Assembly (NCBI GenBank): GCA_020532085.1
Contig: JAJBAV010000025.1
Location: forward strand, 1-41,547
Length of the DNA: 41,547 bases
Reading direction: 5' to 3'
Source: Candidatus Cloacimonadota bacterium
GTDB taxonomy: Bacteria > Cloacimonadota > Cloacimonadia > Cloacimonadales > Cloacimonadaceae
The notes beneath the pieces are model-generated. The model was not told where the DNA came from. It worked only from the letters and a program-made list of their open reading frames with translations, and did not search any database. Below, in pieces: positions 20,688-41,547 of the stretch (position 1 is its first letter; each line of letters begins with the position of its first letter). Both the position numbers and the translations under genes were made by a program.

Positions 20688-20736
20688 CGCCTCCCGCACA
20701 CTTCCCGCTGTTCAGGCGGGAAGTGTGCGGGAGGCG
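20688..20736. repeat. Perfect 21-bp hairpin
   Basis: The arms 20688-20708 and 20716-20736 are perfect inverted copies (left arm opens CGCCTCCCGCACACTTCCCG) with a seven-base loop TGTTCAG. There is no T-run on either side, so it is not a standard terminator. A partial GGGAAGTG copy follows at about 20740. It lies upstream of the adaptor gene. Confidence 0.85.
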
Positions 20737-37629: not shown

Positions 37630-40600
37630 ATGAAAAACCTTGTCCTGGTTGCAGTTATCCTATTGCTCGCGGCTTCCTTGGGAGCCCTTACTTGGTGGAC
37701 CGGAGCGGTTTCCACCGACTGGCACAACGCCTCCAACTGGACCGCCGGGGTACCCACGAACACCAAGCACGCCATGATCCCGGTCGTGACCAATGGCCGC
37801 TATCCCGACACCACCCCCAACATCGCTGTCTGCCAGCGGCTTTCGCTGCAGGCGGGGGCCAGTGTGACCGTTGGAACAGGAGGTCTCTGGGTTGCCGAAT
37901 ACGCCCTGATCTGGGGCCAGGTGAACCTGAGCGCCGCCTCCGATTTTAAAACAGGCCAATCCATGTCTTGGCTGGAAGGGGCGACGGTCAACGTAACCGA
38001 TGTAAACGCGCAGATCTTCTGCGGCGGCGGAATGGAATTCGCGACCGGCTCCAACGTCCAGTTCGCCATGGGCTACATTGAGTTCAGCAACACGTCAGGC
38101 ACCGACAATTATCTTAAAAACAACAGCGCCAATACCATCCTGCCCAATGTCCGTTCCCGCAATTCCTCCGGCGGGATTTTCTACATCCACGGAGACACCA
38201 CCGAGGACATCGTGATCGACGGCAATTTTTGGAACTACCAAGACTGCAGGTTGGAATGCGAGCCCGAAGTTAGCCTGATCGTGAAAGGCAACTTCAAGGA
38301 TTACAACACCGTCGCCGGCAAAGGAGTCTGGCTTACCCACGGCACTTTAGTGATGGATGGGACGATACAATCGATCGAACTGACAAGCCAGAGCATGCTC
38401 AACAACCTCACCTGCAGCGCCACCGACACCGTTAATCTGACCACAGACCTCTTCCTGCGGGGCACCCTCACCATTGCCAGTGGCGTGTTCGACCCCGGCG
38501 GCTGGGGCATCAGGATCCGCGGCGACTGGGTCAACCTGGTGGGACCGGCAGCTTTCGATGAAACGGGCACCACCGTCACCTTCGAGGCGGACTGGGACCA
38601 GTATTGCAATTACGATGAGGATTTCGACGCCCTGGTGGTGAACAAGGTGGCCGGATACTTCATCGTGGACAGCAGCATCGCCGACGTCAATTGCTTTTCC
38701 TACGAATGGATCGATGGCGGGATCAAGGTTTTGGCCGGCTCCTTCTCGGCCCTGTCCCTGGTGAACAACTACATCGCCGGAGAATGGTTCCTCCAGACCG
38801 GCGGCACCATAGAACTCAGCAATTACGGCACCGGTTTCATCGACCTGGGCGGCTCGCTGAACATCAGCGGCGGGATCTTCAACATCTACGGCGGCATTGA
38901 CAATTCCTGGTGGCCCTATCCAGCGGACGCGTCCATCACCATGAGCGGTGGCACCCTCGACTTCAAAACCCAGGGTGTGCTGATTACCAACGCAACCTAC
39001 TCCCTTACCGCGAACATCACCGGCGGCACCATCCGCGTGGCCGGAGGCTTCACCGTGAACCGCGCCGGCTTCCTTCCCGGCGGCGGTACGATCGTGCTGG
39101 CGGGCAGCGCGGATTGCCAGGTCAGCCACGTGGCCGGCTCCAGCTTCTTCTCGCTGGACATCAACAAATATCTGGAAACCGAGACGGGAAACCTGCCCCG
39201 CTTCGAAACAAACCGGGAGGGCAAGGTCCGCGAACTCACCCGTTCGCAGATAGTAACGGCAGCATCGAACCTGGATATCAACGGCAGTTTCTTTCAGCGC
39301 GCGGGTTACTTCATTGCCCCGGCCCAAATGAACGTGCGTGGCAGCTGGTACAAGTACACCGGTCACGATTCCTTCACCGAGGGCACGGGCAAAGTGGTAT
39401 TCGACGGCGCCACCAACAGCACCGTTTACGGCGAGGAGGACTTCAACGACCTCGAACTGGCCAAAACTTCCCTGGCTTGGGAATTCCGGGTGCCTCTCAA
39501 CAGCGCAGCGGACTGCGATTCCTACGATTGGACCCAGGGCACCCTGGAGGTTTCCGGCGGCTTTTTCTACGCCCATGAAATGGTGGACGACGTGATCCAG
39601 GGCGAGGTCAACCTCTCAGCAGGCAGCATCATCTTCGTTCAGGACACCGCCACCACCCTGGGCCTGAGGGGGCAGCTGAACATCAGCGGCGGTGAACTGC
39701 ACATCTGGGGCGGCGCGACCGATCTGGTGACCGCCATGCCCAGCGGCGGTGATGCCGGCCTTACCATGTCCAACGGGCTGCTCTACCGCCATGGCTGGGG
39801 CATCGGCATCTACAACAACGCCTACGCCTTCAACGCGAACATCAGCGGCGGCGTCATCCGCACCGACGGCAATTTCTACTGCGACCGCGCTGATTTCAAC
39901 CCCTCCGGCGGAGAACTCGAGCTGGCCGGCACAGCAAATTCCTATCTTACGGTAACCGGGCCCGGCCTGCAGCAACTGAGGATCAACAAAGGAAGCGACG
40001 CCTCCGTTATGCTGATGTCGGATCTGGACCTCAACGGGCTGCTGACCGTGGATTCCGGCAGTTTCGTTCTCAACTCCAACCACATCCACACCACTGGGAG
40101 CATTATCGTGCACGGCACCATGATAGTGAATGGGAATTCTTGGCTGTACCTGAACAACCTGTGCTACCTGAACGTGGAATCCGGCGGACGGTTGGAGGCC
40201 ATTAGCTATCCTGGCAGTCTGGTCGCGATCAACACCGATGCCGGCTATTTTTACTTCAACGTCCGCAGCGGAGCCACCATCGCCGCCAGTTATTGCCTCT
40301 TTGCCCAGATGTCCCAATACGGCGTATATGTGCATCCAGGGGCCAGCATCGATCCCGACCACTCCTTCGATCACTGCCGTTTCTCTTGGGGCGTTGAGGG
40401 CGGGGCTTTGCTTACGATCGACAATTCCGACCATGTGGGCATCGTCAGCCCGCAGTTTCTCACCGACGCTGGCGTCGGTGCCTCCAACGTGCGCAAAACA
40501 ATTGACGCGGGGATCGTGAACATTGTCAACTCCACCGGATACTTCAGCGGGGAGGAATATGATGACGATTTTTACGGCCGCGTACTATGGAACGCCGGCA

Positions 40601-41238
40601 ACGATCTTCCAGATTTGCAGATTGTTACTGCCGAATGGGTCCCCGCCACTCCGGACCCCTGGCTGGGCGACTCCCGCGACCTGAAGGTGACCCTTGTGAA
40701 CAACAGCCTCAATGCGCTTGAAGGTATCTTTTACCTCGATCTCTACTACGATCGCGACACCCCGCCCACCCTCACCCAGGTCGGAGATATGTACCTCAAC
40801 CTGAGCGAGATGCCGGCCGGACTGCCGGTGGAGATGATCTTCGCAGGCATAGCCAATTATAATGAAGACCTGGCCGGGGAATGGAACTCCTGGCTGCAGC
40901 TCGATTCAGATGGCTTCATCGCCGAATCCAATGAAAACAACAACGTTTACGGCCCCTTCCACATCACCTGGCAGGATCTGCCCGCTATCATCGATCTGGA
41001 CATCTCCTACGATCCGGATACCGGCCTGGCCACCCTGGATTGGGATTACCCCCTCAGCGTCACCAAGTTCAATGTCTATAGCGATACAGACCCCTTCGGC
41101 GATTTCAGCACCGCAGCCGGCTGGTCCACCACCCACAGTTATAGCTTCTCACCCGGCCCAAACCTCTTCTTTCGGGTGACCGCGGTACGCCTGCCACCTT
41201 CAAAATCCACACCGGAACTGCCCCGCACCCGCGACTGA
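37630..41238 (+). CDS. Large secreted beta-rich repeat protein with CARDB-like and FN3-like C-terminus
   Basis: 1202 residues, no enzyme motif. A signal peptide (MKNLVLVAVILLLAASLGA) is followed by TWWTGAVSTDWHNASNW, a W-x-G...W...NW motif seen at the start of secreted FCB-group proteins. The body is built from short glycine- and serine-rich strands with ISGG and SGGT turns, typical of beta-helix adhesins. Two long segments are related: around residues 341-510 and 615-780, each with a C-x-S-Y-[ED]-W segment, LNISGG, an NISGG..I-R segment and LAG near the end. Residues about 990-1110 resemble a CARDB domain (acidic, ending in ESNENNNVYGPF) and about 1115-1190 resemble FN3. A cell-surface or matrix role is inferred. 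GGGGAG lies upstream of ATG 37630. Confidence 0.83.
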   Translation: MKNLVLVAVILLLAASLGALTWWTGAVSTDWHNASNWTAGVPTNTKHAMIPVVTNGRYPDTTPNIAVCQRLSLQAGASVTVGTGGLWVAEYALIWGQVNLSAASDFKTGQSMSWLEGATVNVTDVNAQIFCGGGMEFATGSNVQFAMGYIEFSNTSGTDNYLKNNSANTILPNVRSRNSSGGIFYIHGDTTEDIVIDGNFWNYQDCRLECEPEVSLIVKGNFKDYNTVAGKGVWLTHGTLVMDGTIQSIELTSQSMLNNLTCSATDTVNLTTDLFLRGTLTIASGVFDPGGWGIRIRGDWVNLVGPAAFDETGTTVTFEADWDQYCNYDEDFDALVVNKVAGYFIVDSSIADVNCFSYEWIDGGIKVLAGSFSALSLVNNYIAGEWFLQTGGTIELSNYGTGFIDLGGSLNISGGIFNIYGGIDNSWWPYPADASITMSGGTLDFKTQGVLITNATYSLTANITGGTIRVAGGFTVNRAGFLPGGGTIVLAGSADCQVSHVAGSSFFSLDINKYLETETGNLPRFETNREGKVRELTRSQIVTAASNLDINGSFFQRAGYFIAPAQMNVRGSWYKYTGHDSFTEGTGKVVFDGATNSTVYGEEDFNDLELAKTSLAWEFRVPLNSAADCDSYDWTQGTLEVSGGFFYAHEMVDDVIQGEVNLSAGSIIFVQDTATTLGLRGQLNISGGELHIWGGATDLVTAMPSGGDAGLTMSNGLLYRHGWGIGIYNNAYAFNANISGGVIRTDGNFYCDRADFNPSGGELELAGTANSYLTVTGPGLQQLRINKGSDASVMLMSDLDLNGLLTVDSGSFVLNSNHIHTTGSIIVHGTMIVNGNSWLYLNNLCYLNVESGGRLEAISYPGSLVAINTDAGYFYFNVRSGATIAASYCLFAQMSQYGVYVHPGASIDPDHSFDHCRFSWGVEGGALLTIDNSDHVGIVSPQFLTDAGVGASNVRKTIDAGIVNIVNSTGYFSGEEYDDDFYGRVLWNAGNDLPDLQIVTAEWVPATPDPWLGDSRDLKVTLVNNSLNALEGIFYLDLYYDRDTPPTLTQVGDMYLNLSEMPAGLPVEMIFAGIANYNEDLAGEWNSWLQLDSDGFIAESNENNNVYGPFHITWQDLPAIIDLDISYDPDTGLATLDWDYPLSVTKFNVYSDTDPFGDFSTAAGWSTTHSYSFSPGPNLFFRVTAVRLPPSKSTPELPRTRD

Positions 41239-41292: not shown

Positions 41293-41375
41293 GGCTCAGC
41301 TGTCGTGGTAAAACTTGATCGTTGCCTCTCCGCCATTCCATCCCAAAATTCCTTGACTTCACGTTTCGCTCCCAA

Positions 41376-41547
41376 TATCAATACGGTATCAATACGGAAT
41401 CATTACGGATGAAATCCGTATTGATTCCGTATTGATACCGTATTGATACCGTATTGATACCGTATTGATACCGTATTGATACCGTATTGATACCGTATTG
41501 ATACCGTATTGATACCGTATTGATACCGTATTGATACCGTATTGATA
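41376..41547. repeat. 11-bp tandem repeat array with an orientation switch
   Basis: Three units in one orientation (TATCAATACGG at 41376-41386 and 41387-41397, then the variant AATCATTACGG at 41398-41408), a seven-base spacer ATGAAAT (41409-41415), then twelve units in the opposite orientation: CCGTATTGATT at 41416-41426 followed by eleven perfect copies of CCGTATTGATA from 41427 to the end of the window. The array continues off the edge. Centre and flanks can form a hairpin (ACGGAT/ATCCGT across the spacer). No spacers are present, so it is not CRISPR. Confidence 0.95.

Follow-up and report, generated by a model that had tools for sequence, protein, structure and literature searches.

An 11-bp repeat array at a contig end in a Cloacimonadota genome is an overgrown copy of a dispersed, extragenic hairpin repeat

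Tandem 11-bp units are familiar from plasmid R1, whose parC site is built of 11-bp iterons bound by ParR. The dispersed palindromes of bacteria are usually short and tied to REP-associated tyrosine (Y1) transposases (RAYTs). REP elements comprise the GTAG and CGTC superfamilies and have stems of 5–13 bp (PMC3733652, Table 1). IS3-family elements which target REPs are also known, namely IS1397, ISKpn1 and ISPsy8 (PMC1525189). In the Cloacimonadota genome analysed here (G000), an array of 11-bp units at the end of a contig is one copy, with one arm overgrown by nine units, of a dispersed near-perfect palindrome.

The window, i.e., the whole stretch of 41,547 nucleotides that was analysed, is contig C25 (1–41547) of a draft genome of 2.81 Mb in 98 contigs; its features are collected in Table 1. 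The MnmG protein assigns the genome to Cloacimonadota, its best match ('Candidatus Cloacimonadota bacterium CLC_T2 Bin 9_4') being 90% identical across part of its length. The initial annotation had described eleven perfect direct copies and one variant running to the window edge, with three units in reverse orientation on the other side of a seven-base spacer, and these coordinates were confirmed (TRF score 257, period 11, 99% matches). Because a 22-mer of the array, used in reversed form as a control, had no matches genome-wide, the array is real and beyond chance. The proposal that the 11-bp units lie in helical register was upheld, and the suggested ACGGAT/ATCCGT symmetry centre is the true palindromic centre, with the tip ACGGAT-GAA-ATCCGT. 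Since this tip is asymmetric, every copy of the palindrome has an orientation. The element itself starts before the array as first annotated, at the foot GCTCCC (41368–41373). The upstream ORF (37630–41238) matched no Pfam or NCBIfam family. The second hairpin of the window belongs to the wider class of 11-bp hairpins described below, and represents a repeat family separate from that of the edge array.

Table 1. Coordinates of the repeat array, its surroundings and the associated insertion sequence ends
Feature	Position	Strand	Remark
Upstream ORF, 1202 aa	37630..41238	+	Stop codon 129 bp before element start
Left foot GCTCCC + AA	41368..41375	.	Partner foot TTGGGAGC on contig C58
Left arm, three 11-bp units	41376..41408	-	Same arm in other copies
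Reverse unit TATCAATACGG	41376 and 41387		Variant AATCATTACGG at 41398
Centre ATGAAAT	41409..41415	.	Tip of the ACGGAT-GAA-ATCCGT hairpin
First right-arm unit, variant CCGTATTGATT	41416..41426	+	
Expanded right arm, 11 perfect copies of CCGTATTGATA	41427..41547	+	Starts 41427, 41438, 41449 ... 41537 (end 41547); normal copies have 2 units here
Second hairpin, CGCCTCCCGCACACTTCCCGC...	20688..20736	.	11-bp stem periodicity; family 2, tens of genome copies
IS left end at foot	L154, L157, L158, L163, L173, L177, L186 (this genome); L258 (G008); L033 (G018)		

Exactly 127 bp at the window end (from 41421) recur at the beginning of contig C58. They comprise TTGATT and 11 units, and C58 then continues into TTGGGAGC, the expected opposite (right) foot. 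A direct join of C25 and C58 gives a right arm of 1 + 11 units (exactly 11 of them perfect), as opposed to 1 + 2 in normal copies. The rest of the array had been placed outside the window; on C58, what lies beyond the edge is not a longer array, as the contig passes from the 127-bp overlap straight into the foot. The contig break falls at the shared 127-mer, which resembles an assembler k-mer and thus points to a branch, so that arm-length variants with at least 12 units are likely to occur in the sampled population. Unit gain is seen in the window copy (+9 units) and in another copy (L153; +1 unit). Replication slippage, which had been offered as one origin of the array, stands as the likely cause of the long run in one arm: 11-bp units would be gained or lost by slippage, and an 11-unit arm at the window edge would result.

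The search of the genome for further arrays, recommended in the initial annotation, found the same palindrome approximately 60 times, scattered and nowhere clustered. Based on a 39-bp core pattern with at most 3 mismatches, 59 copies were mapped, 37 of them exact, and two more copies (C1:114437 and C1:209944) carry another linker, one typical of the related genome G010 (GATCCCGTA). Each copy is an inverted repeat of approximately 92 bp whose foot is GCYCCC/GGGRGC and whose arms hold three 11-bp units each, the unit being TCAWTACGG followed by a 2-bp linker. The consensus of the aligned copies is GCTCCCAATATCAATACGGTATCAATACGGAATCAWTACGGATnnnATCCGTAWTGATTCCGTATTGATACCGTATTGATATTGGGAGC. The foot GCYCCC is kept in most of the 59 copies, and the flank profiles indicate that strong conservation ends there. 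By gene calls made with a simple in-house hexamer method, none of the 59 copies lies inside a predicted gene. Of the 42 copies with a neighbour on either side, 15 sit in convergent gaps; among all 244 gaps between genes of these stretches, 29 are convergent. The median distance of the copies is 80 bp from gene 3' ends and 216 bp from 5' ends. Searches for the repeat in genome contig and viral contig collections, in which its own genome may be absent, gave no matches. A molybdenum/tungsten cofactor riboswitch (RF01055) adjoins a hairpin copy both in this genome, at L149:2784-2902 (-), and in G010, at L323:5597-5715 (+).

The two arms are kept complementary, with compensatory changes between them. 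The 33-pair stem was compared across 27 distinct copies taken from five genomes, and standard pairs make up 97.1% of its cells. Changes on both sides of a pair number 47, versus a shuffle mean of 17 (none of 500 shuffles reaches 47), and slid-pairing controls give 0 to 6. Most of these both-side changes fall in the linkers that join the units or at positions 2 and 4 of the unit. The feet also covary between T and C (10 both-changed copies; permutation p 0.0015), while left-right complementarity past the foot is not significant. The RNA fold of one copy has a free energy of -74.5 kcal/mol (z -13.3) and a stem of about 44 bp. No Rfam family was found at the element in the four loci scanned. The flank profile contains no consistent T-run at the foot, and T is weakly enriched about 10 nt beyond it.

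The unit pattern is present in 11 of 125 Cloacimonadota genomes, all belonging to one family. Matches per strand amount to 57 in this genome, 76 in G006, 57 in G010, 39 in G008, 40 in G012, 77 in G020 and 13 in G066, with few elsewhere; eight further genomes of the genus lack the pattern. All the genomes compared are metagenome drafts. Each element-rich genome has its own linker dialect, e.g., TA/AA here, GA/GA in G010 and TG/AC in G006. The architecture is the same in the relatives that carry the element, and the dialect is species-specific. Several intergenic sites are occupied in both this genome and G010, at rates that are biased because the G010 stretches were picked around G010's own copies. 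At L149/L323 and L165/L303, homologous flanks reach the element edge in exact same-site alignments. Core identity is 0.987 within this genome, 0.973 within G010, 0.883 between the two, and 0.878 for twelve same-site pairs, some of which share just the gap and one flank. The strongest same-site cases are L149/L323, L165/L303 and, with G008, L168. As the same-site cores (87.8%) are no closer than cores compared between genomes (88.3%), the site has no memory of a common core. Dialect follows species and not site, which is concerted evolution. The same-site pairs could reflect repeated insertion at a preferred spot. However, an unusual right foot (AGGAA) is common to L165 and L303, and an unusual left foot is common to L168 and G008; these shared non-standard feet favour descent of the site with homogenisation over repeated insertion.

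Presence and absence of the element differ at orthologous sites of relatives. In G002, which is 77–97% identical in the tested flanks, no intact copy is present at 13 orthologous sites. Its junctions are short and uninterrupted at L178, L190 and L192, and a degenerate relic is present at L174. No target-site duplication was seen by eye in the flanks or at L178, L190 and L192. The G002 sites without the element may be empty or have lost it, rather than surely representing the state before insertion. A different dispersed repeat of approximately 200 bp is found in G002 in gaps which hold the hairpin here (L359, L362, L366, L367, L369).

An insertion sequence is associated with the foot. Its left end, TGTCTCGTCCTAAAAAAGTTGACAC, occurs 7 times in this genome, in 7 of 7 cases two bases beyond a hairpin foot (Table 1), and the same end abuts hairpins, including those of other dialects, in G008, G018, G020, G006, G012, G034 and G016. 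The full element in G021 comprises an OrfA-like frame followed by an OrfB with an rve domain (PF00665; E value 1.6e-22), and this predicted OrfA/OrfB layout together with the rve domain identifies it as IS3-type. Contigs of this genome end inside the insertion sequence. Many assembly breaks in these genomes are explained by their location at such hairpins and the adjoining insertion sequences. Another element end (GTAGCGTCTCAAAGGTTGGTGT) likewise lies directly next to hairpin copies at contig starts (L152:1-155 and L187:1-130).

Hairpins with an 11-bp stem period extend beyond this palindrome. An unbiased scan for stems of at least 18 bp in sampled stretches of genomes recovered 11-bp period families with the units TTCCCATATCG in G021, CATTACGCATG, CCTGCCACGAC, CCCTCCCGTAA and CATTGCCCACC in G034, CGAAATCAAGC and TCTCTAATGAT in G019, and CTTCCCGCNNA in G002 as well as in the window hairpin at 20688–20736. 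Those with CCTTAGTATAA (G013) and ATTACGCTATC (G016) come from loci picked for other reasons. The CTTCCCGCNNA-unit family has tens of copies both here, e.g., at C1:25176 and C3:74350, and in G002. Outside the CCGTA family, 17 of 19 hairpins have 11 as their best lag with an identity of at least 0.6 (shuffles: mean 0.41, maximum 3), in a small set of sampled hairpins whose short stems allow few positions to be compared. At that level no repeat was present in controls from other phyla (375 kb; 7 hairpins), E. coli (200 kb; 2) and the order's other families (172 kb; 1). Within the family, 159 kb from six other genomes and 100-kb samples of G001 and G016 contained no 11-bp hairpins, which shows that the class is patchy. 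The sequences of these hairpins differ between and within genomes, and their stems consist nearly always of 11-base units. The papers searched contained nothing relevant on the sequence, on repeats in Cloacimonetes or on hairpins built of 11-bp repeats. We would put forward, tentatively, an architecture-defined class of hairpins, made of tandem one-turn 11-bp modules, in several genomes of one Cloacimonadota family; it may be rewritten genome by genome with arms and copies kept in step, and its copying and homogenisation would fall to a dedicated machinery that reads the hairpin one turn after another.

For the array itself, we consider it probable that it belongs to a hairpin repeat which is non-autonomous, dispersed and extragenic, and of which it is one copy. 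Copies would spread in trans via an enzyme acting on the folded strand, a Y1 (RAYT-like) transposase being one candidate. Uniformity within a genome would arise when copies convert or repeatedly replace one another, and hairpin-templated correction would uphold the symmetry of the arms. The 11-bp module most likely corresponds to one helical turn, so that a protein would touch all units along one face of the hairpin. The relevant folded form may be DNA or RNA.

A true REP/REPIN-RAYT system, in which a resident Y1 transposase copies the hairpins, seems to us rather doubtful. The genome holds 7 Y1_Tnp genes, a strong Y1 match is present in 5 of 5 element-rich genomes of the genus versus 2 of 8 without the element, and at four places (G006:C18, G010:C59, G000:C2 and G010:C54) a Y1 gene has a copy 29–330 bp downstream. 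The Y1 genes of element-bearing genomes nevertheless fall in different clades, with none common to all, and the linkage is inconsistent; with no common clade, the presence of Y1 genes was rejected as the explanation. Moreover, the hairpin has no GTAG or CGTC tag, and its stem of approximately 44 bp compares with 5–13 bp in REPs (PMC3733652). The RAYT at G000:C2 was also rejected as mobiliser: it has small palindromes of its own, CCGGATNNATCCGG, which differ from the hairpin and have 9 of their 11 occurrences in 372 kb there, so that the hairpin repeat is not its obvious partner. This RAYT-like Y1 gene (L142:2187-3420) is 98% identical in G010:C54 (L243), sits among CCGGATNNATCCGG palindromes and apparently forms part of a separate REP-RAYT pair.

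It is also unlikely that the element is a host-kept RNA hairpin, i.e., a bidirectional terminator or mRNA 3'-end stabiliser whose sequence is selected by a host RNA-binding factor. Such a role would suit the tendency of copies to lie near gene 3' ends and in convergent gaps, the very stable fold and the compensatory changes. One turn of A-form RNA takes 11 bp, and the module matches it. Against this, no consistent T-run follows the foot, many close relatives are without the element, orthologous gaps in G002 are empty, and selection alone poorly explains near-identity that includes the loop bases. The initial annotation had suggested a protein-binding array such as iterons, a partition site or a nucleoid-protein site. 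An iteron, partition or origin site is not supported, as a plasmid iteron, parC or origin site should be present as one or a few arrays, and what was found are approximately 60 dispersed copies on dozens of contigs, always intergenic and without clustering; the copies may serve as nucleoid-protein sites. Overall, we regard a chromosomal protein-binding site, with parC-like 11-bp iterons serving the nucleoid or segregation, as improbable: the helical phasing and the 11-bp iterons of R1 parC speak for it, but the copies are absent in close relatives, their dialects differ, and each is one long inverted repeat and not a set of direct iterons. A functionless low-complexity tract expanded by slippage is least credible of all and can practically be set aside. 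Slippage by 11 bp explains the 11-unit arm well, and is valid only for the extra units, whereas the tract as a whole is part of a conserved, dispersed and structure-constrained family. The outcome named at the outset as counting against a function, a unique tract without conservation, is contradicted by the approximately 60 copies and by an architecture conserved in relatives.

Because copies at the same site in two species carry species-specific cores, these small bacterial repeats allow concerted evolution to be measured directly. Furthermore, a fixed 11-bp module common to unrelated hairpins of one bacterial family suggests a protein or process which reads one turn. Compared with known systems, the repeat shares 11-bp units with the iterons of R1 parC but is dispersed over the chromosome, inverted, conserved as a hairpin and variable in sequence. 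Like MITEs, it is short, non-coding and present in many copies with terminal inverted symmetry, whereas no target-site duplication was seen, and a transposon sharing its ends, which could be the parent, was not found. With the REPINs and their RAYTs (PMC3116915), it has in common a single-hairpin inverted repeat, a non-autonomous nature, presumed movement in trans, and several types per lineage; it differs in that its arms are tandem 11-mers rather than two REPs and a spacer, and in that the resident RAYT at G000:C2 has other small palindromes. A few Y1 genes, of different clades, do have a copy downstream. As with the IS3 elements at REPs (PMC1525189), an IS3-type element is located at a palindrome, but its target here is the foot of an 11-bp-unit hairpin, always in one orientation and in several dialects. 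The closest likeness is to REPs and BIMEs (PMC3733652), which are also dispersed, extragenic and palindromic, number tens of copies, favour gene 3' ends and convergent gaps, and are targets of insertion sequences; unlike them, the hairpin has the foot GCYCCC/GGGRGC in place of a GTAG or CGTC tag, one stem of approximately 44 bp made of 11-bp modules, genome-specific dialects and concerted evolution. Because it lacks the tag and the short stem, we do not file it as a REP; it is a kind of extragenic palindromic repeat, REP-like in its behaviour.
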